Below are positions 104-12,750 of a DNA stretch of 12,750 nucleotides, piece by piece. The position numbers and the translations under genes were made by a program. The stretch is from Bacillota bacterium (lineage in GTDB: Bacteria > Bacillota > Bacilli > Alicyclobacillales > Alicyclobacillaceae): the NCBI GenBank assembly GCA_021820805.1, contig JAKADF010000038.1, positions 1 through 12,750 on the forward strand, written 5' to 3'. The notes under the pieces were generated by a model. The model searched no databases. It was given only the letters and a program-made list of their open reading frames with translations, and was not told where the DNA came from. Position 1 is the stretch's first letter; each line of letters opens with the position of its first letter.

Positions 104-168
104 CGCATGTCTATATATAGTATAAGTCTATAATTGGATCAATAATTCATGAAGGGATGAGCTATTAC

Positions 169-417
169 ATGAGTGACAAAGCAGCAGTTAAAATCCAATA
201 TTGCACTTCTTGAGGCAGCTATTTAAAAGAAGTCACCCGGGTGGTGGCCGAATTGCTGGCACAACGACATGCACAAATTTCTGATCTTGTATTGATTCCG
301 TCAAGTGGCGGGGTTTTCGATGTTTCAGTGGAAAGTAAATTGATATTCTCCAAAAAATCATTGAAGCGATTCCCTCAAGAAGGCGAAATATTACGTCTGT
401 TTGAAGAATCTTTTTGA
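169..417 (+). CDS. SelW/Rdx-family thioredoxin-like protein, candidate selenoprotein (in-frame TGA at 211-213)
   Basis: This reads as an 82-residue protein if the TGA at 211-213 is decoded as selenocysteine (U15). It starts at ATG 169, preceded by a GAAGGGATGAG ribosome site at 151-161, and ends at TGA 415-417. The N-terminus reads IQYCTSUGSYL, the redox motif of the SelT/SelW/SelH (Rdx) family, where bacterial homologues normally have CxxC. The rest matches the family pattern: a helix (residues 19-32), then an LIPSSGGVFDV strand-turn-strand (44-54), a KLIFSKK segment (59-65) and RFPQEGEI (69-76). Length is typical of bacterial Rdx proteins (about 75-100). Both sides of the TGA belong to the same domain in the same frame, so a random nonsense hit is unlikely to land exactly on the redox residue. 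A SECIS-like hairpin lies at 232-248. Expected role: a small cytosolic thiol/selenol redox protein. The alternative is a pseudogene, or a Cys codon TGC or TGT read as TGA by sequencing error. Confidence 0.85.
232..248 (+). promoter_or_regulatory. SECIS-like hairpin downstream of in-frame UGA
   Basis: GTCACC (232-237) pairs with GGTGGC (243-248): six pairs including one U-G wobble, closing a five-base loop CGGGT (238-242). The stem begins 18 bases after the TGA and the loop 24 bases after it. Bacterial SECIS elements lie inside the coding region just after the UGA, with a short GC-rich stem and a small apical loop carrying a G near its 5' side, which SelB recognises. This hairpin fits that layout. 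Bacterial SECIS sequences are poorly conserved, so structure and spacing are the only support. Confidence 0.6.
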
Positions 418-449
418 TATTGAATACAAGAATACAAATAGTAAGAAGG

Positions 450-480
450 CCCGCTAGTCGAATTGGCTGACGGGTTTTTT
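450..480 (+). terminator. Rho-independent terminator of the SelW-like gene
   Basis: CCCGCTAGTC (450-459) pairs with GGCTGACGGG (465-474), with one C-A mismatch and two G-T wobbles. The loop is GAATT, and a run of six T follows (475-480). It lies 32 bases after the SelW-like stop codon. It therefore closes a short transcript and separates this gene from lipA. Confidence 0.85.
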
Positions 481-2847: not shown

Positions 2848-3402
2848 TTAATGATTTGACGTCGACCCCGGAGCATAGTATAGCGGCGGGATTTTAAGCC
2901 AACCTCGTTTTTTCATAAGTGTTTTTAGGTTCGTACCATATACCATGTGTTCCTGCAGGAATTCGGCCCATATGAGGCCGACATCATTTCGAATGGCTTG
3001 TGCTGCCCCATCTGCGCATGTCTCGATAGCAAGAACGATCTTCATTACAAGGCTGTTTGCAATTTCGTCGTCGGTTAATTTTACACCAAGCGGAACATCA
3101 CTCGGGTTCGATACTGGTTTTGACTCGCTCATGGGCGGCACAGGAATGCCTTCTGTTTGCATGAAACTTACAAGTTGCTCCTTCTGTGATTTGGTCAACT
3201 TTACTGCTTCATGAAGCGCTTGCTTAAGTTCTGGGTCAGATGTACTGTTAATTCCCGCTTCAGAATGAATTTGCGACTCTGACATGAGCGCGACATACTC
3301 CCAACATGCCATCACTTCGCCAACATGAAGAGGGGATTTCGGCTGTGCGTCCGTAAATGATTGAACTACATTTCTAACTGCTTCTAAGATATCCGGCACC
3401 AT
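2848..3402 (-). CDS. DUF3231 family protein
   Basis: The 184-residue protein matches the DUF3231 pattern from memory. This pattern includes PLHVGEVMACWEY (24-36), a helix with TSDPELKQAL, the EGIPVPP turn, the GVKLTDDEIAN segment, CADGAAQAIRNDVG and the C-terminal LKTLMKKRGWLKIPP followed by a Tyr/Pro-rich end. DUF3231 proteins are widespread in spore-forming Bacilli and predicted to be helical bundles; their biochemical role is not established. Many members carry two tandem copies of this unit, while this one has a single copy. The start is ATG 3402, with AAGGGGTG just upstream on the minus strand; the frame stays open for 23 more codons upstream but has no ribosome site there. It is divergent from the SOS operon and shares a 170-base intergenic region with it. 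Nothing links it functionally to repair. Confidence 0.85.
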   Translation of the reverse strand: MVPDILEAVRNVVQSFTDAQPKSPLHVGEVMACWEYVALMSESQIHSEAGINSTSDPELKQALHEAVKLTKSQKEQLVSFMQTEGIPVPPMSESKPVSNPSDVPLGVKLTDDEIANSLVMKIVLAIETCADGAAQAIRNDVGLIWAEFLQEHMVYGTNLKTLMKKRGWLKIPPLYYAPGSTSNH

Positions 3403-3495
3403 ATCACACCCCTTATGATTACTATTTCCCCAGAAGGAACTCTCATGCACATATGATAAATCACGTATCAAATGAACTTAACCACATTTTACATA

Positions 3496-6405: not shown

Positions 6406-7242
6406 TTACACGGACTCCTTAACTACATAGTTTCGAAGGGTACCGACATTCTCAACCCATACCTCAACGACATCACCTTCTACGAGGTAACGTGGTGGGG
6501 TCCGGCTGTCTCCAACTCCGCCAGGTGTGCCCGTCGCAATTACGTCTCCTGGTTCCAGTGTAAGACCTTTCGAACAATACACAATAAGTTCCTCAATCGA
6601 GAAAATGAGATCCTTCGTGTTCGCTCTCTGCATGACTTCGTTAGAAACAGTTGTTTGGATTTGGATATTGGAAAGATCAATTCCATCAACTGAAGCGATA
6701 CATGGTCCCATTGGTGCAAATGTATCAAAACTTTTTCCTAAGGTGAATTGACGAAGCGGGGTTTCAAGTTGCGCACGTCGACCTGATACATCATGAAACG
6801 CACAAATGCCTCCAATCGCAGAGCGTGCCTCTTCGCGTGTGGCACGATAGACGCGCTTTCCAATTACGACTGCAAGTTCGCCCTCGAAATCTGGGCGAGT
6901 CTCTTCTATCGGAATAACAATGTTTTCTTCATGTCCAATGAGGGCAGAAGAGAAAATACTAAAAATAACAGGAACAGAGGGTACATCAAGTTCCGATTCT
7001 TTCGCGTGGCTTCGGTAGTTTAAACCAACTGCTAGGATTTTCTTTGGAACAACAGGATGTAATAGTTGGACTTCTGCTAAATCATAAGTTGTGCTAGAAG
7101 AAGTTTTAATGTTTTCCCAAGCCAAATGGGTTGGAACGAAGCCATCTGGTGATGAAGGACCACAGTCGAAAATGGTATTATCATCTTCTAATCGGCCAAT
7201 TCGTATATTTCCGTTTTTAACCTTAAACCTAACCGCCTTCAT
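6406..7242 (-). CDS. Fumarylacetoacetate hydrolase (FAH) family enzyme
   Basis: FAH-fold enzymes cleave or isomerise 2,4-dioxo or 2-hydroxy-dienoic acids using a divalent metal, and are frequent in aromatic ring-cleavage pathways (fumarylpyruvate or acylpyruvate hydrolases, HpaG-type isomerase/decarboxylases). Numbered from the start used here, the 278-residue protein has ILAVGLNYRSHAKESE (69-84) with a candidate catalytic histidine H79. It also has the metal-ligand motif DFEGELAVVIGK (E120, E122), the third ligand D151 in FHDVSGRR, KSFDTFAPMGP (170-180) and GTPGGVG. The usual asparagine before the aspartate is histidine here (HDVS instead of NDVS), a small deviation. Two ATG codons compete. 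ATG 7248 overlaps the upstream stop (ATGA) but lies one base from GGAGG. ATG 7242, used here, has a better 7-base spacing. It is translated after the CMD-family gene and divergent from the ring-cleavage operon, so it probably acts downstream of ring opening. Confidence 0.92.
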   Translation of the reverse strand: MKAVRFKVKNGNIRIGRLEDDNTIFDCGPSSPDGFVPTHLAWENIKTSSSTTYDLAEVQLLHPVVPKKILAVGLNYRSHAKESELDVPSVPVIFSIFSSALIGHEENIVIPIEETRPDFEGELAVVIGKRVYRATREEARSAIGGICAFHDVSGRRAQLETPLRQFTLGKSFDTFAPMGPCIASVDGIDLSNIQIQTTVSNEVMQRANTKDLIFSIEELIVYCSKGLTLEPGDVIATGTPGGVGDSRTPPRYLVEGDVVEVWVENVGTLRNYVVKESV

Positions 7243-7244
7243 TT

Positions 7245-7577
7245 TCATGCCTCCTGTACTTCGCGTAATACTTTCATAGCTTGGACAACCCGTGGGGTAC
7301 CCGCGTATGGAAGAGTCTGTAATATAATTTCTTCAATTTCCTTGTCACTCACCTCAATAGCTTGTAAAGACCGGATATGTGCTTTTACTTGAGGCTCGCA
7401 TCCTCCCAGCGTGATTAGCACGGAAAGTATAATGATCTCCCGTTCACGAATAGAGAGTCCTTCTCTACAATGAATATCGCCAAAAGCAAAGTCGACAATA
7501 TAATCCCCGAGATCCCCCATTCGTTTTAAGAATGAATCTCCACCTGGCTCATCTTTGAGTTCGGCAAGCCTTTTCAA
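7245..7577 (-). CDS. Carboxymuconolactone decarboxylase (CMD) family protein
   Basis: The 110-residue product carries the CMD fold signature: FAFGDIHCREGLSIREREIIILSVLITLGGCEPQ... (in segments, 30-63), then KAHIRSL with H67, EIEEIILQTLPYAGTPR and a helical end. It has the GGCEPQ form (C60) and lacks the CxxC pair of AhpD-like peroxidases. It therefore belongs to the non-redox, decarboxylase-like branch, which includes gamma-carboxymuconolactone decarboxylases and many uncharacterised proteins of aromatic clusters. The TTG at 7577 has AGGAGA 9 bases upstream. A stronger AAGGAGG (7619-7613) lies 8 bases from an in-frame CTG at 7604. Starting there would add nine residues ending in RERG, resembling the ERGL often seen at the N-terminus of this family, so the start is uncertain. 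It is coupled to the FAH-family gene. Confidence 0.88.
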   Translation of the reverse strand: MKRLAELKDEPGGDSFLKRMGDLGDYIVDFAFGDIHCREGLSIREREIIILSVLITLGGCEPQVKAHIRSLQAIEVSDKEIEEIILQTLPYAGTPRVVQAMKVLREVQEA

Positions 7578-7638
7578 GCCACGCTCTCTCCTGTTATTTT
7601 CCAGCTTTAATTCCTCCTTAAATTTTTATAAGTGTTAC

Positions 7639-7667
7639 TTGACTAGATTGTATACATTATATATTAT
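7639..7667 (+). promoter_or_regulatory. Predicted promoter of the catabolic operon
   Basis: TTGACT (7639-7644), a 17-base spacer and TATTAT (7662-7667) form a good SigA-type promoter driving the VOC gene and its followers, leaving a leader of about 100 bases. The region is very AT-rich, and leftward promoter elements for the CMD-FAH pair probably overlap it (for example TTGGAA and TATAAT-like hexamers read on the minus strand). Confidence 0.6.
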
Positions 7668-7670
7668 ACA
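7649..7670. promoter_or_regulatory. Possible operator in the divergent promoter region
   Basis: TGTATA (7649-7654) and TATACA (7665-7670) form an inverted repeat with a ten-base gap. The left arm contains the self-complementary core GTATAC (7650-7655), of the type bound by FadR-subfamily GntR regulators. The repeat sits between and over the predicted -35/-10 of the rightward operon, where a repressor would act. No regulator gene lies in the window, and AT-rich DNA yields such repeats readily, so this is a suggestion only. Confidence 0.35.
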
Positions 7671-7776
7671 CAGTATAAGTCTAATATTAAGAACATTCCA
7701 AAATTAGTATTTAGATTTAATTTAAGACTTGCTATGATGTTGAATTACTCGGTGTGAAGTAAAGGAGGGGGAAAAA

Positions 7777-8718
7777 TTGAAAGCAATAAAATTAAGAAAA
7801 ATTAGTCATGTTGCGTTGAGGGTTTCGGATTTAGATGAAGCTTCAACTCGCTGGCAAGTACAGTTTGGGCTTACAGAAAGGGAGCGAACAGAGACAAGTG
7901 CATTCTTACACTGTGGTTACGAGCCATACTCGTTGGAATTAATAGAAAGCAATAACCCGGGGTTCGACCATACAGCGTATGAGCTTGCGAAAGATGTTTC
8001 GATTGAAGATGCAGCAGAATACTTACATTCATTAAGCGTGCACTTCAGACAAGAGGGGGATTCACTTTATCTGCAAGATTCAGATGGTAATGGTGTAGAG
8101 TTAATGCCTTACTTGACTTCTAATGACTTAAGGCCTGATGTTGCGCGTTCAACGAAACTTCTTCGGGGATTTCGACCAAGAAAGCTTGGCCATGTCAATT
8201 ATCTGACAGGTGAGCTACAAAAACAGGTCCAGTTCTATACAGAAGTTCTCGGAATGAAAATCACAGACAAACTTGGCACAGAAGGTACTTGGTTACACAT
8301 TAATGCGGATCATCATGTAATGGCTCTTGTGAACAAGGGGTATCCGCATATTCATCACTTTGCACTTGAAATGGTGGATTGGGGTGAGCTTCGTGTTGCC
8401 CTAGACCATTTAGCACAGCATGGTCGATGGTTAGCTTGGGGGCCCGTTAGACATGGGCTTGGTAGAAACCTCAGCGCCTATGTTCGTATTGTTGAGGAAG
8501 AATGCTTTGTAGAAATTTTTACAGATATGGAACAATTGGAGGAAGGCCACCAGCCGCGCGAATGGCCAGATGACGCTCATTCTTCAAATGTATGGGGGAT
8601 ACTGCCACCTAGATCATACTTCCGTTTTGATCCTGTAGCTGTTGAATCAGAGCGGCAAGGGCTTGAGGCTCAGGGAATTCCATTACCCGCGTTAGATTTA
8701 GGTATTTATAATCGCTGA
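7777..8718 (+). CDS. VOC-family extradiol ring-cleavage dioxygenase (catechol 2,3-dioxygenase-like)
   Basis: Type I extradiol dioxygenases open catechols next to the hydroxyls using Fe(II) and oxygen. The 313-residue, two-domain protein matches their layout. The N-terminal VOC module (about 7-112) begins KISHVALRVSDL, and the catalytic C-terminal module (about 135-252) begins RKLGHVNYLTG. The expected 2-His-1-Glu iron ligands are present: H139 in GHVNYL, H193 or H194 in IHHFALEM, and E246 in FVEIFTD. H226 (GPVRHGLGRN) and Y235 occupy the places of the conserved active-site His and Tyr. Length is within the usual 290-320. The start is TTG 7777, with AAAGGAGGGG at 7761-7770. It is the first gene of a rightward operon, followed after 42 bases by the hydroxylase. 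The intact ligand set argues for activity; the catechol it cleaves is unknown. Confidence 0.9.
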   Translation: MKAIKLRKISHVALRVSDLDEASTRWQVQFGLTERERTETSAFLHCGYEPYSLELIESNNPGFDHTAYELAKDVSIEDAAEYLHSLSVHFRQEGDSLYLQDSDGNGVELMPYLTSNDLRPDVARSTKLLRGFRPRKLGHVNYLTGELQKQVQFYTEVLGMKITDKLGTEGTWLHINADHHVMALVNKGYPHIHHFALEMVDWGELRVALDHLAQHGRWLAWGPVRHGLGRNLSAYVRIVEEECFVEIFTDMEQLEEGHQPREWPDDAHSSNVWGILPPRSYFRFDPVAVESERQGLEAQGIPLPALDLGIYNR

Positions 8719-8760
8719 ATCATTAAATCATGGTAATTTTTTTAGCTGGGAGGGGAAAGT

Positions 8761-10221
8761 ATGGCAATTGAGCAACAGACTAAGGTTCTGGCGCGTACGG
8801 GAAAACAATTTTTAGACGGACTTGCAAGCAAAAAAAGGGAAATTTGGTTAAACGGAGAGAAGATTACAAATCCGCTCGAACATGAGGCACTTGCATTAAC
8901 CGCAAAAAGTTTAGCAAGGGTGTTTGACCTTCAGCATGAACACGCGGGCGAAATGTTAATGGAGTCGCCTGACGGAGGCGGGCTTGTTAATGTTACCCAT
9001 GTGATTCCGAGATCGTATGAAGATCTGGTAAAAAGACGTAAAGCAATCGAGTTGTCTGCAGCATTGTCCGGGGGCACGATGGGGCGAACACCAGACTACT
9101 TGAATGTAACTTTTGCTTGCTTCGCTGGTAGATCCGATGTTTGGGCGAGGAGAAATAACGAGCGAGGAGCAGAAAACATTGTTGCCTATCAGAAATTCAT
9201 GCGAGACATGGACTTATCGACTACACATGCGCTCATGAATCCTCAAGTAGACAGGACAAAACCAGAAGCTGCACAGGCAGCGGGGCAGGTCGCGCTTCAC
9301 AAGGTTGGAGAGACTAAAAATGGCATTATCGTCCGTGGTGCAAGGATGCTTGCGACGCTTGCAACATTTGCGGATGAACTTACCGTTTATCCAGGGTCAG
9401 ACCTGCGCGCAGAGGACGGAAAGTATGCATTATCCTTTGCAATACCGATGGATGCACCTGGATTGAAGTTTGTCTGCCGCGACAGTTACGGAAAGGTAAG
9501 AGATACCTTTGACTATCCTCTCTCTAGTCGTTTTGACGAGATGGATGCCATGGTCATTTTTGACGATGTTGAAGTTCCGTGGGATAGAGTGTTTCTTGAT
9601 GGAGATACAGTTGGTTATTCAGAGGTTATTACGGACACAGGCTGGCGCGGACACATTATGCATCAAGCATTCACAAGAGCATATGTAAAGCTTTCCTTTG
9701 CATTTGGCCTTGGACACGTGATCGCAAACACTACAGGTGTCGTTCGGTTTGATCACATCCAAGAAAAACTTGGACAGATTTGGAATCTTGTAGAATTGAC
9801 CCGTTCTGCGATTACGGCTGCAGAAGCCGGAGCGCGTCCTGATGCAATGGGTGTTTGGTACCCGGATGACCGGCCATTCTTAGCACTTCGCGGTGAAATG
9901 CCAAAATGGCTGCCAAAGGTGAATGAGCTATTGCAGTTAATTGGCGGCGGCGGTTTTATGCTAACACCTTCTTATGCTGACGTGAATGGTCCGATGAAGG
10001 ATGAAATCGCGAAGTATTTTCAGGCTGCGGGTGCTGATGCTGAAAGGAGAATCCGCCTGTTCCGATTAGCGTGGGATTTCTTTGGCTCTGAGCTTGGGGG
10101 ACGTGGTGAATTATATGAGCGATTCTATTTGTCAGATTCGTGGAGAATGACTGCTCTAGCCTATAAAATCGCAAACAAGGATTTTGCGACGTCGCTGGTT
10201 GAACAGTTTCTGCACGACTAG
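8761..10221 (+). CDS. HpaB-type FADH2-dependent phenol hydroxylase (4-hydroxyphenylacetate 3-monooxygenase family, oxygenase component)
   Basis: Enzymes of this group add an ortho hydroxyl to a phenol using reduced flavin supplied by a separate reductase, giving a catechol. The 486-residue length and acyl-CoA-dehydrogenase-like fold are typical. Visible motifs are WLNGEKITNPLEHEA (29-43), THVIPRSYEDLVKRR (79-93), GTMGRTPDYLN (105-115), THALMNPQVDRTKP (155-168), FDEMDAMVIFDDVEVPWDRVF and LIGGGGFMLTPS. R109, Y113 and H156 have the spacing of the substrate-binding Arg, Tyr and His of HpaB. This supports a true phenol hydroxylase rather than a different acyl-CoA-dehydrogenase-like enzyme. ATG 8761 follows GGGAGGGGAAAGT. 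The reductase (HpaC type) is not in the window. The gene lies between the ring-cleavage dioxygenase and the ADC-family gene, fitting catechol formation just before ring opening. 4-Hydroxyphenylacetate itself is not proven as substrate. Confidence 0.92.
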   Translation: MAIEQQTKVLARTGKQFLDGLASKKREIWLNGEKITNPLEHEALALTAKSLARVFDLQHEHAGEMLMESPDGGGLVNVTHVIPRSYEDLVKRRKAIELSAALSGGTMGRTPDYLNVTFACFAGRSDVWARRNNERGAENIVAYQKFMRDMDLSTTHALMNPQVDRTKPEAAQAAGQVALHKVGETKNGIIVRGARMLATLATFADELTVYPGSDLRAEDGKYALSFAIPMDAPGLKFVCRDSYGKVRDTFDYPLSSRFDEMDAMVIFDDVEVPWDRVFLDGDTVGYSEVITDTGWRGHIMHQAFTRAYVKLSFAFGLGHVIANTTGVVRFDHIQEKLGQIWNLVELTRSAITAAEAGARPDAMGVWYPDDRPFLALRGEMPKWLPKVNELLQLIGGGGFMLTPSYADVNGPMKDEIAKYFQAAGADAERRIRLFRLAWDFFGSELGGRGELYERFYLSDSWRMTALAYKIANKDFATSLVEQFLHD

Positions 10222-10233
10222 GAGGAAAAAATT

Positions 10234-11031
10234 ATGTTAAAAGGTTTTTCAGTTCCGAGGTCACCGGAGGGAAAGGCGGCGCTTATTCCGACACCTCCGT
10301 GGCATTATGCAGGAGATTTTCTCGTCCTTGAATATTGGGCCGACCCAAATGCAGTTAAAGCAGTACTTCCACCGGGCCTTAAACCTTATGACGAGGATAT
10401 GGGTCGATGCGCAGCACTTTTTATCGACTGGCAGTCTTGCACGACAGATCAGACAGAGCTCATTGATCCTGTTCGCTCCCAGTACAAAGAGTTTTTTATC
10501 GTCGTGAATGCTTTATATAAGGGGGAACTTGTAACCTATTGTCCTTATATCTGGGTAGATAAGGATTTTGCGCTTGCACGCGGCTGGGTACAGGGATTCC
10601 CGAAAAAACTTGGGTCTATTCATATGACTCGATCATTTAATGTGGCTTCCAGTGCTGCACCAGTTATCGGTCCTGGTGGGCGATTCGCAGGCACGCTTGC
10701 AGCGAACGACCGCAGGTTGGCGTATGGTGAGGTGGTTTTGGAGCAGAAGAGCGAGGGGGGTCCGACACATAATGATCCACCGATTACGAACGTCAGATAC
10801 TTCCCGAGACTCGCGAGCGATTTCCAGGACAGTCCTGCTGTGAACGAATTGGTTCGAGCAAGAAGCAGGAATAGAGCCATTAGTGAGATTTGGGAAGGAA
10901 CCGCGAAGCTCGAACTGCTGCCCGCGCCAAATGAGGAACACACTGCACTGTTGCCTGTCAAGATGGGGAAAGGCTTTCAATTTTCGTTTGCTTATACAGT
11001 TGACGACTTAGAGACCTTAGAAACATTTTAA
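10234..11031 (+). CDS. Acetoacetate decarboxylase (ADC) family protein
   Basis: The 265-residue protein matches ADC-fold proteins. It has an N-terminal LIPTPPWHYAGDFLVLEYWADP segment (17-38), then AVLPPGLKP (43-51), YKEFFIVVNALYKGE with E86, and GWVQGFPKKLGSI (117-129). The adjacent lysines K124 and K125 correspond to the Schiff-base lysine and its pKa-lowering neighbour in Clostridium acetobutylicum ADC, so Schiff-base chemistry is likely. The ADC superfamily also includes decarboxylases and aldolase/dehydratases acting on other keto acids. Here a role on a ring-cleavage product is more plausible than acetone formation. ATG 10234 has AGGAGG 8-13 bases upstream. It is 12 bases behind the hydroxylase and clearly in the same operon. 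The gap of 55 bases to the next gene shows no terminator. Confidence 0.88.
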   Translation: MLKGFSVPRSPEGKAALIPTPPWHYAGDFLVLEYWADPNAVKAVLPPGLKPYDEDMGRCAALFIDWQSCTTDQTELIDPVRSQYKEFFIVVNALYKGELVTYCPYIWVDKDFALARGWVQGFPKKLGSIHMTRSFNVASSAAPVIGPGGRFAGTLAANDRRLAYGEVVLEQKSEGGPTHNDPPITNVRYFPRLASDFQDSPAVNELVRARSRNRAISEIWEGTAKLELLPAPNEEHTALLPVKMGKGFQFSFAYTVDDLETLETF

Positions 11032-11086
11032 TAGTTTCAGTTAAACATACCTGGGTAGAAGTCGTTCATGAAATGAGGTTGAACAC

Positions 11087-12556
11087 GTGAGCAGTGTCCC
11101 GAACATTCAAAACAATCTGGATATAAAAGGGCAACATTACATTAATGGTAAATGGGTTGAGGCGGAAACTGCAAACTTATTTGAGGTAAGGTCGCCGATA
11201 GACTGGTCAGAACCCATCGCTTATATGGCCAGAGGAGGCGCACCTGATATTGATTTGGCTGTCGAGGCTGCTTACAAAGCCTTTCCATTATGGTCAAATA
11301 TGCGAGCCAAAGAAAGAGGGCAATATCTGAGACGTCTTGCAGAATTAATTGAAGAGAACGTAGAGCGAATTGCTAGGGCAGAAAGTATCGACGTTGGCAT
11401 GTTAGAGCGTTCCTTAAAGGCACGTCTCGTATTTAGAGGGGCGGCAAACTATCGGTTTTATGCAGATTTAGCAGAGAGTTATGAAGAACGCGAGTGGAAT
11501 TCAAATGGAACACAAAATCGTGTGATTCGGATGCCTGCAGGTCCCACGGCAATTATCACACCATGGAATGCGCCATTTATGCTGTCTACTTGGAAAACGT
11601 CACCGGCACTAGCTGCGGGATGCACAGTGGTTCTCAAGCCACCCGAATGGGCTCCACTTACCTGTGCGATACTTGCAGACCTTGTTGATAAAGCTGGATT
11701 TCCAGCTGGCGTGTTTAATGTCGTACATGGGATTGGAGAAGAAGCAGGCGCAGCGCTCGTCAGGAATCCTAAAATTCGACGTATAGGGTTTACCGGGTCT
11801 CCTGAAACGGGACGATTGATAGCTCATGCTGGTGCAGAGAACCTCGTACCACTTACGGCGGAACTTGGTGGGAAGAGTCCACTCATTGTATTTGATGATA
11901 GTGATTTAGAGGCAGCTGCACAAAAAGCTGCAAATCAGTATGACGATGCTGGTCAGGTTTGCTTGGCTGGAACCAGGTTATTAGTGCAAAAGTCTATTTT
12001 TGAGCCATTTTTAGAAATGTTCCATCGCTATACGGATGCCCATATTCTTGGTGATCCGCGCGATAACGAAACAACAATTGCTCCACTGATACATCCGGAC
12101 CATTTAGAACGCGTTGAAGGGTTTGTGAAGCGTGCAGAACAGAACGGCGACCACGTTATCAGGGGAGGAAAACGAGCAAAGATTGGTGGTCTTTGGTACG
12201 AACCAACTCTGATTGTACCGAAGTGTAATGATTCTGAAGTAATTCAGAAAGAAGTATTTGGGCCTGTATTAACGATTCAAACATTCGAGAGTGAAGAAGA
12301 GGCAATTACACTAGCCAATTCCACAAGATACGGTTTGGCAGCTATCTTGTACACCTCTTCGGCAGAACGGGCAAACCGCGTTGGGCGTGCTGTCCGTGCA
12401 GGTACCGTATGGTCGAACTGCTTTTTGGTTCGTGACCTATCCGCACCTTTTGGGGGAACCGGAATTTCGGGGCTCGGCCGCGAGGGCGGAGATTATGCGC
12501 TTGATTTTTACTCTGATTTAAAAACACTTCAAGTTAAGGAGGGAACAACCAAGTGA
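11087..12556 (+). CDS. NAD(P)-dependent aldehyde dehydrogenase, semialdehyde-type
   Basis: The 489-residue protein is a full-length ALDH superfamily member. It has TPWNAPF with N161, the cofactor-binding K184 in VVLKPPEWAPLT, the GFTGSPETG loop (234-242), the general base E259 in ELGGKSP, and the nucleophile C292 in DAGQVCLAG. A late KEVFGPVLTI motif also fits. In ring-cleavage clusters this family oxidises 2-hydroxymuconic or 5-carboxymethyl-2-hydroxymuconic semialdehydes to the acids. The context points to that role, but closely related members act on betaine aldehyde and other aldehydes. The start is GTG 11087, with a modest GAGGTTG site upstream (11075-11081). The stop overlaps the P450 start by four bases (GTGA, 12553-12556). 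It belongs to the rightward catabolic operon. Confidence 0.93.
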   Translation: MSSVPNIQNNLDIKGQHYINGKWVEAETANLFEVRSPIDWSEPIAYMARGGAPDIDLAVEAAYKAFPLWSNMRAKERGQYLRRLAELIEENVERIARAESIDVGMLERSLKARLVFRGAANYRFYADLAESYEEREWNSNGTQNRVIRMPAGPTAIITPWNAPFMLSTWKTSPALAAGCTVVLKPPEWAPLTCAILADLVDKAGFPAGVFNVVHGIGEEAGAALVRNPKIRRIGFTGSPETGRLIAHAGAENLVPLTAELGGKSPLIVFDDSDLEAAAQKAANQYDDAGQVCLAGTRLLVQKSIFEPFLEMFHRYTDAHILGDPRDNETTIAPLIHPDHLERVEGFVKRAEQNGDHVIRGGKRAKIGGLWYEPTLIVPKCNDSEVIQKEVFGPVLTIQTFESEEEAITLANSTRYGLAAILYTSSAERANRVGRAVRAGTVWSNCFLVRDLSAPFGGTGISGLGREGGDYALDFYSDLKTLQVKEGTTK

Positions 12557-12750
12557 GCTTATCAGAAGTTGAGTTACTAAACGTTAATCTAGAACATGAT
12601 GCTTTTGTCGAAAGTGTTCCACATGAGATGTTTGCAAGACTGAGGCGCGAAGCACCTGTCTACTGGTATGACTGGAAGGAAGGAAAAGGTTTTTGGTGTC
12701 TAACGAAGCACGCCGATATCCGTGAAGCACTTAGAAATTGGAAATTTTTT
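12553..12750 (+). CDS. Cytochrome P450, N-terminal part (cut by window end)
   Basis: 66 codons are visible, and the frame is open to the window edge. The protein starts with GTG 12553, with AAGGAGGG (12537-12544) 8 bases upstream. The N-terminus has the layout of soluble bacterial class I P450s: an acidic start, then SVPHEMFARLRREAPVYWYD (21-40), a hairpin with GKGFWCLTKHADIREAL (45-61) and a W-K-F-F where a 'F-S-S' segment would follow. No membrane anchor is present. The heme-binding cysteine and I-helix lie outside the window, so family and substrate cannot be assigned. Its start overlaps the ALDH stop, so it is in the catabolic operon. It may carry out an initial hydroxylation or demethylation of the growth substrate. 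Confidence 0.85.
   Translation, partial: MSLSEVELLNVNLEHDAFVESVPHEMFARLRREAPVYWYDWKEGKGFWCLTKHADIREALRNWKFF

Follow-up and report, generated by a model that had tools for sequence, protein, structure and literature searches.

The window, by which we mean the whole 12,750-nucleotide stretch of DNA that was analysed (contig JAKADF010000038.1, Bacillota bacterium), carries on its plus strand a selW-like selenoprotein gene (169..417) whose in-frame UGA is very probably read as selenocysteine (Sec) by SelB-directed insertion at a hairpin. This reading rests on the conservation of the TGA among relatives, on a covarying hairpin and on a near-exclusive link to selB, and it agrees with the preliminary description, in which the CxxU position of a SelW/Rdx selenoprotein is occupied by Sec. 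In the proposed mechanism, the ribosome would pass the UGA at 211-213 without stopping, and SelB bearing Sec-tRNA-Sec would bind to the hairpin that the mRNA forms at 232-248, leading to insertion of selenocysteine. The product would be thioredoxin-like, 82 residues long and with its redox centre at C12-x-x-U15. SelB-directed insertion is strongly supported by the comparison with relatives, from which Sec insertion in the window's own organism is inferred.

The gene and its annotation

Translation confirmed the 82-codon frame at 169-417, interrupted by a single TGA, that had been claimed. The frame begins with ATG at 169 and ends with a TGA stop at 415-417, and the TGA at 211-213 (residue 15) is the sole in-frame stop between them. 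With this TGA taken as selenocysteine, the redox motif C12-T-S-U15, followed by G, lies at 202..213 (+), with C12 and U15 where they had been placed. Residues of the family flank the TGA: C12 on its 5' side and L42, P44-F50, S61, K62 and R67 on its 3' side are invariant in 18 aligned sequences, which bears out the SelW-type conservation described for both sides of the TGA.

By sequence inspection, a purine-rich putative ribosome site, GAAGGGATGAG, lies at 151..161 (+), 7 bases 5' of the ATG. It is a plausible candidate, with a rather long spacing to the ATG. The gene starts 168 bases from the contig end. Downstream of it come a probable intrinsic terminator, which is a hairpin plus T tail at 444..480 (+), and then lipA and lipB. 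The fold of 415-490 backs the terminator that had been proposed (z of -2.62, with 3 of 200 shuffles equally good), but this hairpin was not among the calls of a simple terminator scan of the window. An Rfam gathering search of the window gave no match, and the 33-residue open stretch at 2-100 matched no Pfam family.

The gene-caller product (P0002) is a 58-aa piece that starts 3' of the TGA. In a search of 5.8 billion proteins there were four matches, namely this 58-aa tail and proteins of 59, 59 and 91 aa, and the latter three align solely with the part after the TGA. In the record of Thermomicrobium roseum (NC_011961.1, L097 3001-3237), the annotated 'Rdx family protein' begins 3' of a TGA that lies in frame at the CxxU position and is without its N-terminal part. 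The expectation that gene callers would miss the gene was therefore correct, and the Thermomicrobium record has the same fault.

Protein family and predicted fold

With C in place of U, the read-through frame matched PF10262 (Rdx) over residues 7-77 with an E-value of 2e-17 (63.6 bits, gathering 22.6) and passed TIGR02174 (SelT/SelW/SelH; 50.1 vs 34.2 bits). It missed the cut-off of NF041051 (SelTWH_Campy), a narrower SelT/W/H model (70.5 vs 88 bits). From these profiles the predicted protein is placed in the broad SelW-like/Rdx family only.

The AlphaFold2 model, made with a Cys stand-in, has a mean pLDDT of 93.5 and the order strand 5-12, helix 18-36, three strands and two short helices. The CxxU centre follows the first strand and comes just before the first helix. 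When the model was compared with the PDB, the first 21 matches were SelW/Rdx chains with TM (query) of 0.80-0.88; MIEN1 and ordinary thioredoxins came after them with lower scores. The solved Rdx/SelW structures 2fa8, 2obk, 2oka, 2ojl, 3dex and 2p0g have the fold of the model, whereas their sequence identity to the window protein is 24-31%. The sequence of 2fa8 matched the window protein with an E-value of 7e-8 and has Cys at the position of the window TGA. The PF10262 match and the SelW-type structural matches together confirm the translated read-through as SelW/Rdx. The product is most likely a thioredoxin-like thiol/selenol oxidoreductase, as predicted from what is known of the family, from which its presumed redox function also follows.

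Conservation of the TGA

When the genome collection was scanned with patterns drawn from the sequence 3' of the TGA, 174 relatives were confirmed, and the best 80 of them were analysed. The CxxU codon was TGA in all 79 readable loci; L068 is unreadable at this codon, the locus being cut by a contig end. Since the TGA is common to 79/79 readable relatives, chance is ruled out as its explanation. The best relative (58%) is L001 in an Alicyclobacillus MAG (genome G001). Judging from record titles, the relatives span Bacillota, Chloroflexi, Neomarinimicrobiota, Gemmatimonadetes, Desulfobacterota-type and other bacteria. Relatives were found in 33 plasmid records, all with less than 60% identity, the best being the TGA-type gene of Thermomicrobium roseum; the viral contigs searched contained no SelW relative.

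A SECIS-like hairpin after the TGA

The putative bacterial SECIS hairpin of the window lies at 232..248 (+), with arms at 232-237 (GTCACC) and 243-248 (GGTGGC) and a loop at 238-242 (CGGGT). All six of its six pairs form, and the loop CGGGU lies 24 nt 3' of the UGA. The bSECIS model given in a 2026 review has a distance of 16-37 nt after the UGA, a small loop and G among the first two loop bases (PMC13188914), and the window hairpin conforms to it in distance (24 nt), loop (CGGGU) and pairing (6 pairs).

Pairing among relatives was counted in A3, an alignment of 62 rows. Twenty of 79 usable loci, mostly near relatives of kept rows, were left out of A3 by hand. As the rows were chosen after some hairpins had already been seen by eye, the count was repeated with the window and every usable locus, and its outcome was the same. 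In A3, the six-pair hairpin with a 5-nt loop had 75.0% of its cells paired vs 60.9% in shuffles, and 57 cells changed on both sides vs 16.5. Covariation was 0.456 vs 0.193 in shuffles, and slid versions reached at most 0.173. RNAalifold recovered 4 of the hairpin pairs from A3 unaided; the outermost pair is formed in just 18 of 62 rows. For the inner five pairs in all 80 usable sequences (79 distinct), 83.8% of cells were paired vs 65.3% in shuffles, and 79 cells were changed on both sides vs 24.9 (maximum 37 in 500 shuffles). Sliding the hairpin out of register in these 80 sequences gave at most 53.9% paired and at most 37 changed cells. Among the 79 distinct sequences, 44 have all five inner pairs, 16 have four, 9 have three and 10 have two, and G occupies loop position 2 in 68. 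Of the 20 rows omitted from A3, 9 form five inner pairs, 7 form four, 3 form three and 1 forms two.

When hairpin energy was tested against codon shuffles in the 80 sequences, the mean z was -1.74, with 73/80 negative. In this test the window had z of -0.44, on a different hairpin. In a separate folding of four stretches from the window, one gave another structure. Single-sequence folding found the energy of the window hairpin not unusual. The support for a SECIS element in the window therefore comes from pairing in register with its relatives, and the energy of the window sequence alone is no evidence for it.

The window protein has one extra residue, S17, after U-G, which occurs in 0/17 relatives of A2, an alignment of 18 sequences, and in 0/61 relatives of A3; its extra codon makes the window piece in A3 3 bases longer. 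An extra residue (U-G-S-Y/F-L; window 226-228 region) is also present in L172 (G229:C305:465-689), the second SelW copy of genome G229. In both the window and L172 the extra codon moves the hairpin by 3 nt.

Distribution and the Sec machinery

We ran A2 as a search profile against 398 genomes sampled evenly across the class of G001, which was taken to be Bacilli on the basis of record titles (L001, Alicyclobacillus; L018/G009, Melghirimyces). There were 60 matches in 56 genomes, and 57 of the 60 had an in-frame TGA; in the DNA, 55 of these carry it at the second redox position alone and 2 at both. A TGA-type copy is present in 54 of the 398 genomes (about 14%). That SelW-like selenoproteins are known from surveys was rightly stated in the preliminary description, the family having been recognized by 2005. 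Its view of them as uncommon among bacteria, and as unusual for Bacilli, is not supported, given these 54 genomes. In the order of G001, SelW matches occur in 6/59 genomes, 4 of them TGA-type.

In the class sample, selB (TIGR00475 over cut-off) is present in 85 genomes. Among the 54 genomes that carry a TGA-type SelW, selB is present in 53, selA in 54 and tRNA-Sec in 52; G170 is without selB, and G140 and G229 are without tRNA-Sec. TGA-type SelW occurs in one of the 313 genomes without selB, namely G170 (Fisher p 3e-42, a value overstated because the genomes are related). Control genomes were over cut-off for selB in 2/14, for selA in 1/14 and for tRNA-Sec in 3/14, and selB was present in 14/14 genomes picked from relative loci. 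The TGA-type SelW of G170 (G170:C5:181788-182021, L169) is accompanied by selA and tRNA-Sec, and selB was not found there; an assembly gap is a possible cause. By these profile matches, many genomes of the sampled class have a Sec-type SelW, and almost all that do also have selB.

It is conceivable that Sec decoding has been lost in the window's lineage, so that the UGA now stops translation and selW is a young pseudogene. The nearest genomes to the window by LipB, G030 (64%) and G045 (63%), have no selB over cut-off, nor do 31/59 genomes in the order of G001, and this speaks for such a relic. selB is present in the other 28/59, and tRNA-Sec is over cut-off in 31/59, some scores being barely above. 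The tRNA-Sec scores of G045 and G030 are 47.2 and 46.8 bits against a cut-off of 47 bits. LipB matches at an E-value of 1e-85 were found in 6/398 class genomes, all in the order of G001, and we take the source of the window to belong to that order. However, G039 (59% by LipB) has a TGA-type SelW together with selA, selB and tRNA-Sec, the window gene has no further stop or frameshift and retains the family-invariant residues, its hairpin is intact at all six pairs, and a TGA-type copy in just 1/313 sampled genomes without selB is hard to reconcile with a relic. We thus regard loss of Sec decoding as very unlikely. The Pol IV-like protein of the window, searched within the order only, has 82% identity in G033 and 79% in G041; both genomes have selB, selA and tRNA-Sec, and neither has a SelW match. 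These two genomes, like G030 and G045, the missing selB of G170, the NF041051 score and the unremarkable energy of the window hairpin, count against the selenoprotein reading.

Copies with UxxU and with cysteine

Two SelW copies, L157 (G228:C12:8282-8518) and L162 (G209:C30:817-1053), have TGA at both redox positions (Y-U-T-G-U-G). Their DNA is 80% identical over 207 bases, both form 5/5 inner hairpin pairs, and G228 and G209 each also carry a CxxU copy. Bacterial SELENOW-like proteins are listed as CxxU proteins with one Sec in the 2026 review (PMC13188914), and the UxxU forms of SelW found in the literature searched are eukaryotic, from amphioxus and Ostreococcus (PMC7539508).

Cys-type SelW was observed at L118 (G054, TGC), L119 (G042, TGC) and L183 (the second copy of G073, TGT). 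G054 retains selA, selB and tRNA-Sec; in G042 a search for the three gave none over the limits used. These Cys copies form only 3, 2 and 0 of the five inner hairpin pairs, whereas the 55 class TGA loci caught by the counting script (54 distinct) form all five; L172 forms 4/5. An intact hairpin in the script-caught TGA loci and a broken one in the three Cys copies make a neat natural control. They also bear on whether the TGA of the window could be a sequencing or assembly error for TGC or TGT, which would make the protein an ordinary CxxC Rdx protein. TGA is one base from either codon and Cys relatives do exist, but the error would have to strike the very codon that is TGA in 79/79 relatives, and the hairpin lost in the Cys relatives is kept in the window, so we consider an error extremely improbable. 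Decoding of the UGA as another amino acid, free of selenium, by a changed code or leaky read-through would open the frame as any UGA decoding would, but its probability is negligible, since TGA ends 8 of the 13 other marked genes of the window as well as selW itself, and the hairpin covariation and the selB link indicate Sec.

Gene order around selW

In 13 of the 54 TGA-type class genomes, selA follows selW on the same strand at a distance of less than 1 kb, and in 8 of the 54 selW is within 2 kb of selB. The order selB-selW-selA on one strand was found in G285 (L147), G379 (L146), G364, G371 (L145) and G387, with gaps of 27-83 bases as measured between profile matches. One could speculate that some members of the class use selW as an integral component of their Sec system, with UGA read-through reporting Sec supply and setting selA expression; we think this unlikely. 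The selW of the window is followed by lipA, so the idea would apply to the relatives and not to the window copy. No mention of a selW-selA link was found in the titles and abstract openings of the literature searched.

A conserved selW-lipA pair was also considered and ruled out in the best 80 of the 174 loci, where the neighbours are not shared. When the other window genes were sought in these 80 loci (E-value of 1e-10, more than half of the length), the only match was the aldehyde dehydrogenase, at 33% in L005.

Other genes in the window

Following lipA and lipB is a stand-alone lipoyl domain of 88 aa (2319-2585, +), which is E2-like and comes without the remainder of E2. A DUF3231 protein with a weak Coat_F match by Pfam is encoded at 2848-3471 (-). 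Within 6406-12750, profile matches gave a FAH-type hydrolase and a CMD protein on the minus strand and an extradiol-dioxygenase-like protein, an HpaB-like monooxygenase and an ADC-family protein on the plus strand, where an aldehyde-dehydrogenase-like protein was named by eye. The gene content of the cluster at 6406-12750 suggests a pathway for the degradation of aromatic compounds. The final frame is truncated at 12750; by eye it resembles the start of a P450, and it has no Pfam match.

Discussion

SelW-like selenoproteins were reported as a family in the Sargasso Sea survey of 2005 (PMC1088965). A 2006 survey counted 10 of them, gave Cys homologs as very few or none in Sec-using organisms, and put the total for Bacillales at that time at 3 selenoproteins (PMC1794560). 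The GOS survey lists 427 Sec and 56 Cys sequences of SelW-like proteins (PMC2398784), and a 2016 survey reports the family in 35 organisms (PMC5029168). Reviews of 2022 (PMC9312934) and 2026 (PMC13188914) describe SelW-like proteins as PF10262 with CxxU. The window gene is like these bacterial SelW-like (SELENOW-like) selenoproteins in its family (PF10262 Rdx), size, CxxU motif, UGA and post-UGA hairpin, and differs from them in its source order and in the extra S17 after U-G.

The SelW of Campylobacter jejuni (CJnc60) is reported to be translated at full length by Ribo-seq and proteomics (PMC11955535). According to that report it has, like the window gene, about 80 residues and a UGA decoded by tRNA-Sec, and it was missed by annotation (PMC11955535). 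The likeness is one of description, and translation of the C. jejuni protein is experimental whereas that of the window SelW is inferred (PMC11955535).

In conclusion, the window gene is a further member of a selenoprotein family that many bacteria were already known to have. This study corrects the annotation of the gene, of which the protein database has just the 58-aa tail. Because Sec-type SelW in the sampled class is restricted almost wholly to selB genomes, finding a TGA in a gene of this family is a good indication that a genome has the Sec trait.
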